Part shown: piece after piece, positions 53,378-62,303 of the stretch | Layout: every line of letters starts with the position of its first letter | Numbering within the stretch: position 1 is the stretch's first letter | Origin: Polyangia bacterium | GTDB lineage: Bacteria; Myxococcota_A; Polyangia; Nannocystales; Nannocystaceae | Reading direction: 5' to 3' | Length of the DNA stretch: 64,000 nucleotides | Assembly: GCA_030430565.1 (NCBI GenBank) | Contig: JAUIKS010000025.1 | Location: 1 to 64,000, forward strand | Notes under the pieces: generated by a model | Told to the model about the DNA's origin: nothing | Database searches by the model: none | Seen by the model: the letters and a program-made list of their open reading frames with translations, nothing else | Program-made: the position numbers and the translations under genes

Positions 53378-55138
53378 ATGGCCAAGAAAAAGACGGCGAA
53401 GAAGACGGCGAAGAAGACGACCACCAAGAAGACCACAAAAAAGAAGGCGGCGAAGAAGACCGCCGCCAAGAAGACGACTTCGAAGAAGAAGGCGGCTGCC
53501 AAGAAGACGACGTCGAAGAAGAAGACGACGGCGAAGAAGACGACGACGGCGAAGAAGAAGACCGCCTCCAAGAAGAAGACGACTGCGAAGAAAAAAGTGG
53601 CGAAGAAAAAAGTAGCGAAAGCAGCGGCGCCGGCCGCCGCCGCGCCGGCCCCCACGCCGAACGACGACGGGGTGCTCGAGGAGGCGGTGCTCAACTGGAC
53701 CGACCTGACGGGCGCGCGCACGGGCGCGACCTCCTTCGGCTCCAACAAGTTCTACAAGGCCAAGATCGAGGAGGCCGGCGGTCGCTTCAAGATCACCTTC
53801 AATTACGGCCGCGTCGGCCAGCGAGGACAGACCAAGATCGAGTGGGCCCCGACGCTCGACGCGGCCCGGCGCAAGTTCAACTCCAAGGTCAACAAGAAGA
53901 TCGCCAAGGGCTACCGACGCATCGAGATCCGCAACGAGGCCGAGGAGCGCGCCAAGGCCAAGGCCAAGGGCGTCAAGACCGAGCACGGTGAGAAGAAGAA
54001 GAAGTCCACCGGGCCCAAGCGCGACTTCCACTCGGAGGTCGAGACGCTGCTGCGGACGATGTACTCATCGACCGGGAACGCGGTCAAGAAGGGCCTCAGC
54101 TCGGCGGCCGGCGTCAGCAACAAGGCGCCGCTCGGCAACCTCTCGGACCGCCAGCTCGACACGGGCGCGGACATCCTCGAGGAGATCGAGTCGCTGCTGA
54201 AGAAGGGGAGCCCGGCGCGTCAGAAGATGATCAACCTGACGAACGACTACCTCTCGAACATCCCGCGTAACATCGACCACGCGCGCCGCGGCGGCCGCCT
54301 GGACCTGGACCAGATCCTGATCAACACCACGGAGCGGATCGACGAGCAGCGCAAGTTCATCACGCTGCTGCGCGACATCCACCTGCAGGAGGGCGTCTTC
54401 AAGGACGCGGCCGCGTCCGACGATCCCGTCGAGGTCTGGTACGACGGCCTCGGCTGCGACATCTCCTTCGTCGAGCCCGGGACCGCGGAGTTCAAGCGCG
54501 TCAAGGGCTACTTCGACAACGGCCAGTCGCCGATGAACTCGAACTTCTACAACAAGCTCAAGGTCATCAAGATCTGGAAGGTCGAGCGCAAGAACAAGAA
54601 GACCGACTTCGATGTCTACGCCGAGAAGATAAAGCAGCGCAAGAACGCGACCGGCGTGATCGTCGGCTGGCACGGCACGCGGACCGAGAACCTGATGGGT
54701 ATCTCGCGCTCGGGCCTGCTGATGCCGGAGAACCTGCCGAAGGGTGTTCACATCACCGGCAAGGCCTTCGGCAAGGGCATCTACCACGCGCCCTGTTGGG
54801 ACGACGCTGGCCAGCCGCGCAAGGCCAAGGACGGCAAGACCTACAAGCGCTACAACGGCGCGCTGAAGAGCATGAACTACACCTCGCTGCGCGGCGCCTA
54901 CTACGGCACCTCGAACGTCGGCAAGCGCGGTCACATGTTCTTGGAGGAGATCGCGCTCGGCGTCCCCGAGGTCCACCTGACCGCCTGCTGGGATCGCCCG
55001 CGACCGGCTAAGGGCTTCGACTACATCTACGCGCAGGCGTTCGGGAACCCGCGCCTGAGCCACGATGAGATCGTGACCTTCGACGAGCACGCCTCGCGCC
55101 TGACCCACATCCTCGAGATCGGGCACAAGCGCGGCTGA
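53378..55138 (+). CDS. Bacterial poly(ADP-ribose) polymerase with histone-H1-like tail, WGR-like and PARP catalytic domains
   Basis: A 586-residue nucleic-acid-associated ADP-ribosyltransferase. The frame is open upstream, but ATG 53378 is where the Lys-rich tail begins. Residues 2-84 are made of KKTAKK, KKTTSKK and KKVAKK units, like histone H1 tails, and should bind DNA. Residues about 100-170 are a WGR-type domain with the Trp replaced (NYGRVGQRGQ). Residues about 230-330 match the PARP regulatory helical domain (GNLSDRQL, then LTNDYLSNIPRN). The catalytic domain has all of the H-Y-E triad: His432 in WHGT, Tyr469 in FGKGIYHA and Glu564 in HDEIVTFD. In eukaryotes this architecture senses DNA breaks. 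A strong terminator follows, so it appears to be transcribed alone. Confidence 0.93.
   Translation: MAKKKTAKKTAKKTTTKKTTKKKAAKKTAAKKTTSKKKAAAKKTTSKKKTTAKKTTTAKKKTASKKKTTAKKKVAKKKVAKAAAPAAAAPAPTPNDDGVLEEAVLNWTDLTGARTGATSFGSNKFYKAKIEEAGGRFKITFNYGRVGQRGQTKIEWAPTLDAARRKFNSKVNKKIAKGYRRIEIRNEAEERAKAKAKGVKTEHGEKKKKSTGPKRDFHSEVETLLRTMYSSTGNAVKKGLSSAAGVSNKAPLGNLSDRQLDTGADILEEIESLLKKGSPARQKMINLTNDYLSNIPRNIDHARRGGRLDLDQILINTTERIDEQRKFITLLRDIHLQEGVFKDAAASDDPVEVWYDGLGCDISFVEPGTAEFKRVKGYFDNGQSPMNSNFYNKLKVIKIWKVERKNKKTDFDVYAEKIKQRKNATGVIVGWHGTRTENLMGISRSGLLMPENLPKGVHITGKAFGKGIYHAPCWDDAGQPRKAKDGKTYKRYNGALKSMNYTSLRGAYYGTSNVGKRGHMFLEEIALGVPEVHLTACWDRPRPAKGFDYIYAQAFGNPRLSHDEIVTFDEHASRLTHILEIGHKRG
53381..53630 (+). 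repeat. Lys/Ala/Thr-rich coding repeat (H1-like tail)
   Basis: A-rich, AAGAAG-type codon repetition encodes the basic tail of the PARP. It stands out in base composition from the GC-rich neighbours. Confidence 0.9.
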
Positions 55139-56715: not shown

Positions 56716-57408
56716 GTGAATTTCTTCGGTCACGTGACGGTCGCGCGATGGTTTCGCGCGGACCCTGGCTTCGCGCTCGGGGCCATGCTGCCCGACTTTA
56801 TGAGCATGGCGAGGGTCCGCCTCGCGGGCGTCGACGACGAGGATGTCGCCGCTGGCGTGGCGCTGCACCACCGGACCGATGACGCCTTTCACTACGCGCC
56901 GATCTTCCTCGAGCTGATGGACGAGGCCCAGGAGCAGCTCGAGCGCGTGGGGGTCGGGCACGGCCCCGCGATGGCCTGCGCCCACGTCGGGGTCGAGCTG
57001 CTGCTCGACGGATGGTTGGTCGAGCAGGGCGTGCTGGGGCCGCCGCGCGAGCTCGGGCTCGCGCCGCCGCTCGACGGCGGTCGCGATCTGCAGCTGTACC
57101 GCGCGGCGCTGCAGCACGAGCCCGTCGCGCTCCGCTGGCGCGGCGAGGGGGGCGATGAGCGCATGCGGACGCTGCGACGACGCCTGCGCGAGAGCTCGAT
57201 CCCCGGGGCCTACCGCGATCCTAGCTTCGTCGCCGACCGGCTGGTGTGGATCTTGTCGCGACGGCCGCGGCTCGCGGTCGACGAGGCCGGCGCGGTGGCG
57301 CTGGAGCGCTGGGCGCCGCGCGGGGCCGCGGCCGTGCGAGCGCGCGCGCCCGCGTTGATGCGGCAGGTCGCCGAGCGCCTCGGTGAGCCGCCGCAGTCGT
57401 CAACGTAG
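56716..57408 (+). CDS. Acyl carrier protein phosphodiesterase-like protein
   Basis: A 230-residue soluble protein of AcpH-like type. The N-terminus MNFFGHVTVARWF and GAMLPDFMSM replace the MNFLAHL...GN(F/L)(I/L)GDF motif of AcpH enzymes, and GVALHHRTDDAFH corresponds to the family's H..iD.ftD region. AcpH removes the phosphopantetheine arm from acyl carrier protein. His and Asp residues for metal binding are present in GHV, HHRTDD and CAHVGVELLLD. The C-terminal 70 residues are Arg/Ala-rich and less conserved. GTG start. Confidence 0.75.
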   Translation: MNFFGHVTVARWFRADPGFALGAMLPDFMSMARVRLAGVDDEDVAAGVALHHRTDDAFHYAPIFLELMDEAQEQLERVGVGHGPAMACAHVGVELLLDGWLVEQGVLGPPRELGLAPPLDGGRDLQLYRAALQHEPVALRWRGEGGDERMRTLRRRLRESSIPGAYRDPSFVADRLVWILSRRPRLAVDEAGAVALERWAPRGAAAVRARAPALMRQVAERLGEPPQSST

Positions 57409-57414
57409 TACCGT
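57409..57414 (+). promoter_or_regulatory. -10-like hexamer TACCGT
   Basis: TACCGT ends 7 nt before the ATG at 57422 and supports that start over the upstream in-frame one. Confidence 0.4.
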
Positions 57415-57421
57415 GGGGCGG

Positions 57422-57718
57422 ATGGACTGCCCGTTCTGCGAGACAACGATGAGGTCAGGGCGCGTCGAGCTCGAGGCCCCGGCGGTGACGCGCGTGTTGA
57501 CCGGCGAGACCGGACTCGTCGCGCGCGTCGTGTTCGTCGACGAGCGGAGCGGCGCGCGGACCAAGGCGCCGTCGGGGCTCGTCTCGTACCGCTGCGACGC
57601 CTGCGAGGCGATCGTGCTCAAGGGCGAGGGCGCGGATGACTCGCTCTACTGCTTTGAGTGCGGCGCGCCGATCGGCGCGAGCGAGAGCGCCTGCCCCGCC
57701 TGCGGCTGGAGCTGGTGA
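57422..57718 (+). CDS. DUF6487-like small zinc-ribbon protein
   Basis: A 98-residue soluble protein. It opens with MDCPFCETTM, has a second pair RCDAC, and ends with a separate zinc ribbon YCFECG...CPACGWSW; eight Cys in all. The first ribbon (C..C...M..G.(V/I)...) is the pattern of DUF6487 proteins; the second is a generic ribbon. The function is unknown. Confidence 0.82.
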   Translation: MDCPFCETTMRSGRVELEAPAVTRVLTGETGLVARVVFVDERSGARTKAPSGLVSYRCDACEAIVLKGEGADDSLYCFECGAPIGASESACPACGWSW

Positions 57719-57809: not shown

Positions 57810-59384
57810 GTGCGCGACGACCACCCGCGCGAGCGCTTGGCTCGCCTGCTGCAGCGCTCGCCTAGCGCGGAGCGTTGGCGGCGGGCGCTCGAGCGCGTTT
57901 CGTTGGCTGACGATGATCCGCTGTGGGCCCAGCTTCGGCGCTGGCCGGCGGCGCTGCGGCGTGTCGACATTACGGAGGATCCGTGGGTCAGCGCGGACGC
58001 GCTGCGCGCGGCCGGTCAGCTGCTGATCACGCTCGATGAGCGCCTCGACTGGCTCACGCTGGTCGATGCCCCGCTCGCGCTCGAGGGCCTCGGGGTCGCG
58101 GGGCTGTCCTCCGGGCAGCTGCCGGCGCTGCGCGAGCTGCTGCAGTCGCCGGGCCTAACGACGCCGACGCCCCACGTGTACGTCGAGCTCGACGCGCTCG
58201 CGGCGAGCGAGGCCCGCGAGGCGCTCGAGCTCCTGCTCGGCGCGCCGGCGCGCGTACAGGGGCTCTCGCTCGATCTGCGCGGGCTCGAGGAGGCCAGCCT
58301 CGACGCCGTGTCCGGCTGGCTCGCGGACTCTCTCGACTCGAGCGTGCTCACGGAGCTTCAGCTGCACCTCGATCCGTCACAGCGCGAGGGCGTCGACCGG
58401 CTGCTCACGTTTGTCGAGGCGCGGCTGCGGCGGCTGCGGCGGCTGTCGCTGGTAGGCCTGTCTCGAGGGGCACGCGCGAGGATCCTCGCCACGCTGCGCA
58501 GGGAGCCGTCGGCGCTCGTCGCCCTCGAGCTCGACGAGCTGAGCGACGACGACGCGCTCGCCCTGCTGACCGCGCCGCGCTTGGCCGAGGTCGCGCGGCT
58601 CAGCCTGTGGCCCGGCCCGTTTGGCTGGTTCGCGGACCAGCTGCGCGATCGCCCGCGCGAGCGCTGGGCTACGTGGGCGTCCCATCCTCACCTGCAGCGC
58701 TGGCTTCAGGACGTGCTCCGTCGAGGCGGGCGGTCGCCGCAGGAGCGCCTGGCGCTGCCGGGGCCCGAGGCGATCGCGGAGCTGTATCTGCGTGACGCTC
58801 GAGACGCCTGGATCCCGCAGGGCCTGGTCGACGCGGCGCGGCTGCGGCCCGTGCTGTTTCACCCCGACGGCCGCCCGCGGACGTTCCCCGGGGTCGTCAC
58901 GCTGAGCTTCGGCGACGGCTGGCTGGGACCGCTGCTGCCCGAATTGTTCGCGGCCGGACACGGCATGTTCCCAGAGCTCCGCGGGCTCGACCTCACCCAC
59001 TGCGCCTTGCTCGACAGCGCCGCGTACCGGGCGCTCGGGCGCTCCACGCTGCTCGAGCCGGAGCGGCGCGTGGCGATGCGTTGGCGGGTCTTCAGCCGCG
59101 ACCTCAACAGCTGGCGCGACGAGGGCGCGGAGATGTTGGCGCTGATGCTCGACGAGGACCTTCCGATCTCGCTGCGGCGTGAGCTGTGGGAGCCTGTCCG
59201 CGAGTACATCGCCATGCTCGACGCCGAGGACGCCCGGCGCGAGCTCGCGCGGCACGCGATCGCTGTCCCGGCGTCGCGCTCGGTCCGGGCGCTGCGGGGG
59301 GCGCTGCGGGGGGCGCTGCCGAAGGAAGTCCGGCGCAGGTCGCTGCTGCGATCTCGAAGATGGCCGAGTGACCAGGTAGCCTGA
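57810..59384 (+). CDS. Leucine-rich-repeat-like protein of unknown function
   Basis: A 524-residue soluble, Leu/Arg/Asp-rich protein without signal peptide or membrane helix. Recurrent segments such as LRRVDITEDPWVS, LDWLTLVDAPLALEGLGVAGL, LRRLRRLSLVGLSRG and LRGLDLTHCALLD look like degenerate leucine-rich repeats of the TIGR02996-associated type common in myxobacteria and planctomycetes. I cannot confirm the family. The final 40 residues are repetitive (RALRGALRGALPK). GTG start supported by TACGAT 8 nt upstream. Confidence 0.72.
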   Translation: MRDDHPRERLARLLQRSPSAERWRRALERVSLADDDPLWAQLRRWPAALRRVDITEDPWVSADALRAAGQLLITLDERLDWLTLVDAPLALEGLGVAGLSSGQLPALRELLQSPGLTTPTPHVYVELDALAASEAREALELLLGAPARVQGLSLDLRGLEEASLDAVSGWLADSLDSSVLTELQLHLDPSQREGVDRLLTFVEARLRRLRRLSLVGLSRGARARILATLRREPSALVALELDELSDDDALALLTAPRLAEVARLSLWPGPFGWFADQLRDRPRERWATWASHPHLQRWLQDVLRRGGRSPQERLALPGPEAIAELYLRDARDAWIPQGLVDAARLRPVLFHPDGRPRTFPGVVTLSFGDGWLGPLLPELFAAGHGMFPELRGLDLTHCALLDSAAYRALGRSTLLEPERRVAMRWRVFSRDLNSWRDEGAEMLALMLDEDLPISLRRELWEPVREYIAMLDAEDARRELARHAIAVPASRSVRALRGALRGALPKEVRRRSLLRSRRWPSDQVA

Positions 59385-59712: not shown

Positions 59713-61212
59713 GTGGGTATCATCGACGCGTCGATGCGGATCCCGGGGACGACGCTGCACACGAGCTTGTCCGTGGGCGCGATCAAGGACTACCTGGGCG
59801 TCTACACGCCCGCGCGCGCGTCGGACATCCTGCTCGAGCCGCCGGCGGATCCTGTACGGACCTGGCGGGCGCCGCTGCTCGGCTGCGAGATCGCGAGTCA
59901 CGACTTCGAAGATCCGGTGCTGCCGGCGCGCGAGCTCTTGATGAGCCGCGCGCTCAACTGGGCGCTCCCGCTGCGCGACCCCGACGCCCGCTGGGCCTCG
60001 CCCGACGAGGCGCGCGCGAGCATGGCGCGCGAGTTCGCCGGCATGATCCGCCCGCGCGTCGACTGGCGGGCGCCGCTCTCAGACGAAGCGCTCGCGCTGT
60101 TCGTGCGACAAGGGCTCGCGGCGCACCTGCTCACGCGCGACGAGGGCGGCGAGGGCTATCGCGTCGACCTGCTGGCGATGCGCCGCTACCCGACGCGCCG
60201 CGGTCTGCAGCCCTACGGCGCGCGTCTTCGGCTGTCGCCCGCGCTCGAGCCGGTCGCGATCGACTGGGAGGGGTCCACGCGCCGACCCGGCGGCGTCGAC
60301 TGGGAGGTCGCCAAGCTGGTGTTTCGGGCGTCCGTCGCGGCGATCGTCACGATCCGCGATCACGCGCTCTACTGTCACTTCAAGGTCGCCAACGCGGCCT
60401 GCGTGGCGACGCGGGGCTCGCTCGCGCCGGCGCACCCGGTCCGGCTGCTGCTGCGCCCGTTCCTCTATCGCACGGCCAAGATCAATTTTGACGGCTACAC
60501 GATGCTCGTCCGTCGGCGCGCGATCTTCCACCGGCTGTTCGCGTTCACGTGGCGCGGGCTGCGAGCGCTGTACGCCGACGCGCTCTCCAGCTTCACCATG
60601 CGCACGCTGCCCGAGTCGCTCGCGCGGCGCGGCGTCGCGGAGCTCGAGGGCTACGCCTACGGCGAGGACGCGGCGCGCGTGTGGTCGATCGTCTGTGACT
60701 ACGCGCGCGCCCAGCTCGCCCGCGACTACCAAAGCGACGCCCGGGTCGACGGCGACGCGGCGCTGCAGCGCTGGTGGACGCGCCTGCGCGACACCGCCGG
60801 TTCGGCGCTGCCGCTGCGCGGCGTCGCGGGCCTCGTCGAGCTCTGCGCCCGCCTCATCTTCAACGCGGTCGCGGTGCACGAGCAGGTCGGCGGCTCGATC
60901 GGCGACTACCTCACGCACCCCGGCTTCGCCCCGCCCGCGCTGCAGCGCGGGCGCGCGCCCGAGGAGATGTGGGCCTCGAAGAACACGCTGTACCAGGCCT
61001 ACATGCTCGGCGCGCTGACGAACCTGAGGATGCCGCGCGTGCTCGAGGACCTCTCGGGCGCGCTCCCGGACGAGCACGCGCGCGCGTGCATGCGCGGCTT
61101 TCAAGCGGCGCTGACGGCCTGGGCGCGCGAGCTCGAGCGTCGCAACGCCGGGCGACCGCAGCCGATGCGGACCTTCGACCCCACCAGCATGGAAGTGAGC
61201 GTCTCGATATGA
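59713..61212 (+). CDS. Lipoxygenase-like protein (mini-LOX size)
   Basis: A 499-residue protein with the features of the lipoxygenase catalytic domain. It has the iron-binding H-x4-H motif HALYCH (His217, His222), followed by the family core VATRGSLAPAHPVRLLL...RTAKIN, a third His in VAVHEQV (His389) and the terminal Ile (EVSVSI). The fourth ligand position (four residues after His389), usually Asn or His, is Gly. It lacks the N-terminal PLAT domain, as bacterial mini-LOX do. Lipoxygenases add oxygen to polyunsaturated fatty acids. The stop overlaps the next gene as ATGA. Start uncertain: GTG 59713 with GAAGAGG upstream, or ATG 59734 (residue 8) preceded by TATCAT. Confidence 0.85.
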   Translation: MGIIDASMRIPGTTLHTSLSVGAIKDYLGVYTPARASDILLEPPADPVRTWRAPLLGCEIASHDFEDPVLPARELLMSRALNWALPLRDPDARWASPDEARASMAREFAGMIRPRVDWRAPLSDEALALFVRQGLAAHLLTRDEGGEGYRVDLLAMRRYPTRRGLQPYGARLRLSPALEPVAIDWEGSTRRPGGVDWEVAKLVFRASVAAIVTIRDHALYCHFKVANAACVATRGSLAPAHPVRLLLRPFLYRTAKINFDGYTMLVRRRAIFHRLFAFTWRGLRALYADALSSFTMRTLPESLARRGVAELEGYAYGEDAARVWSIVCDYARAQLARDYQSDARVDGDAALQRWWTRLRDTAGSALPLRGVAGLVELCARLIFNAVAVHEQVGGSIGDYLTHPGFAPPALQRGRAPEEMWASKNTLYQAYMLGALTNLRMPRVLEDLSGALPDEHARACMRGFQAALTAWARELERRNAGRPQPMRTFDPTSMEVSVSI

Positions 61213-62303
61213 GCGAGCCGGCTGATACTCCCCTCGAGCCCCTGCCGAGCACCCCCAGCGCGTGGAGCCGCGCGCTCCGGCTGCTCGGCGTTCGTCGCGG
61301 GCCCGCGCTCGCGCTCGCGACTGAGTACCGCGTTCCCGGTGAGGAGCGCGTCACCGACGAGCTCATCGACGAGATGCTGGCGATGGTGCGCCGTCGCGAC
61401 GCCGACGGGCCGCCGATGCGCGGCGCCCACCCCAAGCAGACCGGCTGCCTCGAGGCCGAGTTCACCGTCGACGAGGCGCTCCCACCCGCGCTCGCGGTCG
61501 GCCTGTTCTCACGGCCAGGTACCTACAAGGCGCTGCTGCGCTACTCCAACACCGCGCCGCGCGTGCAGCCCGATCGCGTCACGGACGTCCGCGGCGTCGC
61601 GATCAAGGTCATGGGCGTGGGCGGCCGCTCGCTGCTCGGCGACGAAGACCAGGACTTCTTGCTGGCCAGCGCGCCCGCGCTCGCGACCTGCGACGTCCGC
61701 GACTTCCTCGAGCTCACGCGCGCCGACCTGCACAGCCACCTGCTCTGGTACTTCCTGGACCTGCGCAAGCGCAACCTGTGGAAGCTCGGCGTCGCCCTGC
61801 GCGCGCCCAAGCAGCGCTTCGCGAGCCCGGCCGACTACCGGTACTGGAGCGCCTCGCCCTACCTCCTCGGCGAGGGGCAGGCGGTCAAGTACGCCGTGGT
61901 CCCGCGTCACCCCCAGGCGGGCAGCCGCAGCGAGCGGCGCGCCGACGATCACCTGCGCGAAGATCTCGAGCGCCAGGTCGCGAGCCACCCGCTGACCATG
62001 GACTTCTTGGTGCAGCGCCAGCTCGACGCCGACGCCATGCCGATCGAGGACCTCTCGGTGCGCTGGGACGAGCGGCGCTCGCCCTTCGTCAAGGTCGCGA
62101 CGATCCGCGCGCCCCGGCAGGAGCTCGCCGCGGCGCTGCGCGAGCGCGCCGATCGTGCGTCGTTTAACGCGTGGCGCTGTCTGCCGGAGCACCGCCCGCT
62201 CGGCAGCGTCAACCGAGCCAGGCGGCGCCTCTACGAGGTGCTCAACCGCGAGCGGACGCGGCGTCTCGAGGCGCGTGGCCAAAAAGCCAGCTCGCGCGGA
62301 TGA
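61209..62303 (+). CDS. Catalase-related heme protein (allene oxide synthase-like / SrpA family)
   Basis: A 364-residue soluble protein with the compact catalase-related fold. The distal His is in GAHPKQTG (His74). The segment GCLEAEFTVDEALPP, with GLFSRPGTYKALLRYSN, is the typical first part of the barrel. DVRGVAIKVMG follows, and the proximal heme motif RxxxY is in NRARRRLY (Arg338 to Tyr342). It is much shorter than true catalase and lacks its flavodoxin-like part. The nearest described relatives by architecture are coral/cyanobacterial allene oxide synthase, which converts lipoxygenase hydroperoxides, and SrpA. Its ATG overlaps the upstream lipoxygenase-like gene, so the two are translationally coupled. 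Confidence 0.88.
   Translation: MSEPADTPLEPLPSTPSAWSRALRLLGVRRGPALALATEYRVPGEERVTDELIDEMLAMVRRRDADGPPMRGAHPKQTGCLEAEFTVDEALPPALAVGLFSRPGTYKALLRYSNTAPRVQPDRVTDVRGVAIKVMGVGGRSLLGDEDQDFLLASAPALATCDVRDFLELTRADLHSHLLWYFLDLRKRNLWKLGVALRAPKQRFASPADYRYWSASPYLLGEGQAVKYAVVPRHPQAGSRSERRADDHLREDLERQVASHPLTMDFLVQRQLDADAMPIEDLSVRWDERRSPFVKVATIRAPRQELAAALRERADRASFNAWRCLPEHRPLGSVNRARRRLYEVLNRERTRRLEARGQKASSRG

Follow-up and report, generated by a model that had tools for sequence, protein, structure and literature searches.

The coupling of a lipoxygenase (LOX) to a catalase-fold heme enzyme with an RxxxY proximal motif is exemplified by the coral allene oxide synthase (AOS)-LOX fusion of Plexaura (1u5u/3dy5). 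Catalase-LOX fusions have also been described in Anabaena PCC 7120 and Acaryochloris (PMC11719350). In Nostoc punctiforme, according to PMC13049297 and PMC9579011 (citing J Biol Chem 289:13101), a 10S-dioxygenase related to COX supplies the substrate of a catalase-related hydroperoxide lyase that has a gene of its own. The locus considered here is a pair of overlapping genes in a 64,000-nucleotide stretch of Polyangia DNA (hereafter the window), of which the first (gene 1) encodes a LOX and the second (gene 2) a catalase-fold heme protein. The pair shares with the coral fusion both the type of partnership and the RxxxY motif, but it is split, its LOX comes first and lacks a PLAT domain, and its heme protein belongs to another clade without the AOS residues Thr66 and Asn137. 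The cyanobacterial catalase-LOX proteins, likened here by their published description (PMC11719350), resemble it in joining a PLAT-less bacterial LOX to a small catalase-related heme protein, although theirs are fused. The Nostoc system, its lyase being likened through the description in those sources, is analogous in having two genes, a dioxygenase that makes a hydroperoxide and a catalase-related protein that processes it (as predicted for the window), whereas its first enzyme is a COX relative and not a LOX. Judged by sequence, the pair is thus of a known kind, a LOX plus a catalase-fold heme protein, but the heme protein comes from an almost unstudied branch. A literature search, in which few subscription papers were covered, found no description of such pairs in Myxococcota.

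We consider it rather likely that genes 1 and 2 form one translationally coupled two-enzyme oxylipin unit, in which a hydroperoxide would be converted into a product other than an allene oxide. The features of the locus are collected in Table 1.

Table 1. Features of the LOX and heme-protein gene pair and their positions in the window
Feature	Position	Strand	Basis
Gene 1, PLAT-less LOX, 499 aa, GTG start	59713..61212	+	PF00305 E 9.3e-17; PDB lipoxygenases E 5e-18; clade placement
H-x4-H iron site His217/His222, then one-residue insertion typical of the LOX clade of gene 1	60361..60378	+	5lc8/4g32 alignment; 64-domain alignment
Third iron His389 and Gly393 (Asn in canonical LOX), motif HEQVG	60877..60891	+	PDB and 64-domain alignments
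Shine-Dalgarno-like GGAAGTGAG, 9 nt 5' of gene 2 start, inside the end of gene 1	61191..61199	+	Read from sequence
C-terminal Ile499, iron carboxylate ligand	61207..61209	+	PDB and 64-domain alignments
ATGA stop/start overlap of genes 1 and 2	61209..61212	+	Sequence
Gene 2, catalase-fold heme protein, y4iL-like (CD08152-type) clade, 364 aa	61209..62303	+	Profile, model, Foldseek, tree
Distal heme His74, preceded by Ala73 (Thr in AOS)	61428..61430	+	Alignment
Ala153, where catalase/AOS have the distal Asn	61665..61667	+	Profile match and alignment
Proximal heme motif R338-x3-Y342	62220..62234	+	Sequence and alignment
1294-aa protein directly 3' of the pair	62358 to beyond 64000; L101 159-4043		Pfam: weak Vps62

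Both genes carry a strong coding signal, with GC at the three codon positions of 0.72/0.53/0.93 (gene 1) and 0.75/0.51/0.92 (gene 2) and gene-model scores of 150 and 117, respectively. The ATGA overlap of two co-directional genes, from which the first-pass annotation had argued that they are expressed together, is indeed present, and it supports translational coupling together with the Shine-Dalgarno-like (SD) stretch before gene 2. Upstream of the pair lie a gene without a Pfam match (57810-59384), a zinc-ribbon-like gene (57383-57718) and, further away, a gene with a weak ACP-phosphodiesterase match (56716-57408); the 1294-aa gene downstream, devoid of any confident Pfam domain, is followed by TrkH/TrkA. 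Since these neighbours do not have the look of a lipid pathway, the operon is most likely limited to genes 1 and 2. Elsewhere in the window, 53378-55138 encodes a bacterial protein with a lysine-rich N-terminus followed by WGR, PARP regulatory and PARP catalytic domains.

The identification of gene 1 as a LOX was borne out by profile searches, with a score of 61.2 bits against Pfam Lipoxygenase (PF00305, cut-off 23.6) and several alignments to PDB lipoxygenases that reach the C-terminal residue; no PLAT domain was detected by Pfam at the N-terminus. When 64 LOX domains of the window genome and related genomes were aligned, the previously proposed iron site of His217, His222, His389 and the terminal Ile499 fell entirely within the iron-ligand columns. 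The Asn, His or Ser of the fifth iron ligand is replaced by Gly393 in gene 1, the Asn being missing in its close clade too; such a fifth ligand is not strictly needed in every LOX. The clade comprises short LOXs with an extra residue after the second His and no Asn four residues past the third, where the HEQVG of gene 1 reads HEAVG in most members, and the closest relative (L009, 43% identity) groups with gene 1 with a support of 95 in the tree. On these alignments, gene 1 is placed in a distinct LOX clade with Gly in place of Asn as the fifth iron ligand, and it very probably encodes an active LOX. Its single-sequence AF2 model (pLDDT 35) was unusable for ligand geometry. No NCBIfam match was obtained for the protein of either gene, and no relatives of the gene 1 LOX were found in viral contigs.

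Gene 2 on its own is sub-threshold against Pfam Catalase (E 0.12). A family profile built from 14 relatives matched the 33-kDa catalase-related protein of M. avium (3e4w) with an E of 8.5e-15, solved catalases with 4e-7 and coral AOS with 1.9e-5, and the AF2 model of gene 2 (pLDDT 79, pTM 0.82) adopts a catalase fold for which Foldseek retrieved catalases (E about 4e-12), 3e4y and 1u5u (E 4e-11). The role of catalase-related heme partner previously given to gene 2 is upheld by these matches, as are the distal His74 and the RxxxY motif at 338-342, the proximal Arg being kept in all 46 clade relatives and the Tyr in 45 of the 46. The distal Asn of the catalase superfamily is absent, its place being taken by Ala153. 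Gene 2 falls in the y4iL-like catalase-fold family, its sequence being 38% identical (E 3e-46) to a y4iL-type catalase of pNGR234a, and it most probably binds heme. The label CD08152 for this clade was taken from PMC4417212, according to which its members are heme-binding but not necessarily catalases. The candidate assignment of gene 2 as a true catalase was rejected on the missing distal Asn and the sub-threshold Pfam match, although the protein may still have catalase activity.

The term “allene oxide synthase-like” in the first-pass annotation, on the other hand, did not hold. A tree was built from 71 catalase-related domains, with coral 1u5u included and cyanobacterial AOS left out; in it, gene 2 lies outside the cAOS clade (support 99) that holds 1u5u. 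The positions of AOS Thr66 and Asn137 are occupied by Ala73 and Ala153, whereas 15 of the 17 cAOS-clade rows carry Thr or Ser at the former and 15 of the 17 Asn at the latter, and BLASTP of gene 2 against the cAOS of its own genome gave no significant match. Assignment of gene 2 as an AOS was rejected on these grounds.

Among the partners of the y4iL-like clade are enzymes of three types, LOX, COX-like and RoxA-like, that are established or presumed fatty-acid dioxygenases. Fusion proteins join the y4iL-like catalase domain with a LOX in L121 (1182-4232, G190), with an animal heme peroxidase of COX-like type in L123 (108-3185, G260) and with a RoxA-like diheme protein in L124 (4001-7411, G501); y4iL-like genes share operons with COX-like or RoxA-like enzymes at L068, L203 and L205, and with RoxA-like proteins at L089. 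Combination of this clade with a LOX was seen only in the window pair and the G190 fusion among the loci examined. Fusions to LodA amino-acid oxidases accounted for 5 of the 72 neighbour or own proteins scanned. Of about 17 plasmid genera examined without selection, only 3 have a y4iL-like relative beside a lipid oxygenase, and as most of the copies there are without such a neighbour, the association with lipid oxygenases is real but partial; it is strongest in the members most similar to gene 2. On the rhizobial symbiosis plasmid pNGR234a, L201 (1986-8852) encodes a RoxA-like diheme protein, a y4iL-type catalase, a cAOS-like fragment, a second RoxA-like diheme protein and a patatin-like phospholipase, and looks like an oxylipin operon. 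The y4iL-type gene there, the sole related place on the plasmid, is presumably y4iL itself. Its product and that of gene 2 are heme proteins of about 40 kDa from one clade, but the surrounding genes on the plasmid encode RoxA-like diheme proteins plus a patatin-like phospholipase, and not a LOX. The Algoriphagus-type y4iL-like catalase at L070 (4974-6530) was tested and carries a C-terminal Polyketide_cyc2 domain, a lipid-binding fold, which L071-L078 probably have as well.

Units that combine a LOX and a catalase-related heme enzyme recur. About ten further pairs, adjacent or fused, were found in related genomes, in keeping with the general idea of a split oxylipin unit. A true cAOS was found in about 15-20 of the 379 phylum genomes, with about ten copies adjoining or fused to a LOX. 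The order is LOX then cAOS in L122 (in the window genome), L152, L153 and L154, with an ATGA overlap in L153 identical to that of the window pair; it is reversed in L158, L159 and L083, and the two genes are convergent in L155. A cAOS-LOX fusion is present in a genome from the window's own genus (L132/L151); as a single ORF at L151 (5751-8075, G366:C31), it has the cAOS then LOX domain order of the coral fusion. The loci L122, L153, L083 and L132 are all like the window in that a LOX adjoins or is fused to a catalase-related heme enzyme, except that theirs is a true coral-type cAOS. The C-terminal part of the L156 cAOS gene was tested for a LOX domain, and no match was obtained. Conservation of the exact pair itself failed: it was present in no other genome searched, and the 29 family genomes held no other LOX more than 34% identical to gene 1.

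The closest relative of gene 1 is paired with a P450 and not with a catalase-fold protein (L081). A divergent LOX followed by a 335-aa P450-like protein is conserved in two families (L102 3642-6126 and L119 6031-8576), and LOX-P450 neighbours were also noted at L081 and L120. A CYP74-like label for the 335-aa proteins was dropped because a PDB profile search backs them only as P450-like (E 4e-4).

In the proposed scheme, the LOX of gene 1 would add O2 to a polyunsaturated fatty acid (PUFA) to give a hydroperoxide, which gene 2, with its tyrosinate heme ligand, would take as substrate and convert into a secondary oxylipin. Cleavage or an epoxide/ketone-type conversion appears the most likely chemistry, as in the catalase-related hydroperoxide lyases and epoxidising forms. 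From the comparative analysis, the gene 2 enzyme may well act on the gene 1 product, and a non-AOS transformation is the most likely origin of the final compound; an allene oxide is an improbable product of the pair. Gene 2 is a single copy in an 11.6-Mb genome that holds 10 LOX genes, from which the chance of its adjacency to a LOX was estimated at about 0.2%, our own figure for a case selected after the fact. A PfaA-type PUFA synthase is encoded in the window genome (above the curated cut-off), and the PUFA substrate may therefore be made in-house. Against the coupled unit stand the occurrence of the exact pair in one genome only, the P450 partner of the closest LOX relative, the position of most gene 2 relatives away from any lipid oxygenase, the five LodA fusions, whose oxidases would make H2O2, the inability of Gly393 to be the fifth iron ligand and the missing distal Asn.

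A broader possibility, which we hold only tentatively, is that y4iL-type proteins are general hydroperoxide-processing modules placed on LOX, COX-like and RoxA-like enzymes alike, and that the window LOX, as a member of a new LOX clade, works with only four protein iron ligands, the outcome being an undescribed oxylipin. Somewhat unlikely, but deserving fair consideration, is a protective role in which gene 2 is a peroxidase or catalase that reduces the lipid hydroperoxide or by-product H2O2, leaving the LOX hydroxide or hydroperoxide as the operon product. The residue before the distal His of gene 2 is Ala/hydrophobic as in true catalases and unlike AOS, and the nearest solved sequence relative of gene 2, 3e4w, has been described as a peroxidase, yet the distal Asn of catalases is missing. 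Catalase domains of the same clade also occur as fusions with amino-acid oxidases of the LodA type, a source of H2O2 (PMC4417212), and these fusions make reduction or detoxification the leading alternative; the closest clade members (L068, L205, L203 and L201), however, adjoin lipid dioxygenases and not LodA.

That the two genes came together by chance or recent insertion, their proteins having no common substrate, is very improbable. The pair does occur in one genome only and the closest LOX is partnered by a P450, but the ATGA overlap with its in-gene SD, the independent fusion of both families in G190 and the repeated pairing of LOX with other hydroperoxide-type heme enzymes all argue otherwise. 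Least probable is a split bacterial AOS-LOX with gene 2 as the AOS, for although the Foldseek match to 1u5u with a LOX neighbour and the genuine cAOS-LOX pairs in the window genome and phylum speak for it, gene 2 sits in a different clade, lacks Thr66 and Asn137, and has no significant BLASTP match to the cAOS encoded in the window genome.

The coupled oxylipin unit would suggest a function, open to testing, for a large catalase-fold family that lacks characterisation and is usually annotated merely as “catalase family protein”, and for myxobacteria-type genomes it is a pointer to oxylipin chemistry parallel to that of corals, cyanobacteria and plants. Alongside its lipoxygenases, about ten in all, the window genome encodes a PUFA synthase and, separate from the LOX/y4iL-type pair, a phospholipase-LOX-cAOS operon. 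In that operon (L122 3507-8095, G000:C30), a patatin-like gene, a divergent LOX and a coral-type cAOS stand head to tail, the patatin-like gene scoring 27.6 bits, just below the cut-off of 27.7; three further LOX genes of the same genome lie in tandem at L164 (5538-10901, G000:C43). An operon of patatin phospholipase, cAOS and LOX is likewise found at L083 (6292-11923, G298:C10), its cAOS matching coral 1u5u with an E of 2.8e-71. With these bacterial cAOS-LOX operons brought to light, the coral gene is seen to nest among them: 1u5u falls within the bacterial cAOS clade (clade support 99, inner branch 87, with cyanobacterial AOS left out of the tree), and a transfer between bacteria and corals is therefore possible. 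Large kinase-AAA-GAF-adenylate/guanylate cyclase proteins, possible regulators, are encoded beside LOX/cAOS at L154 (8020-12999) and L160 (2462-7768). Finally, at L157 (1944-7394, G067), a cAOS domain is embedded in a megasynthase of 1816 aa together with AMP-binding, amine oxidase, PP-binding and acyltransferase domains.
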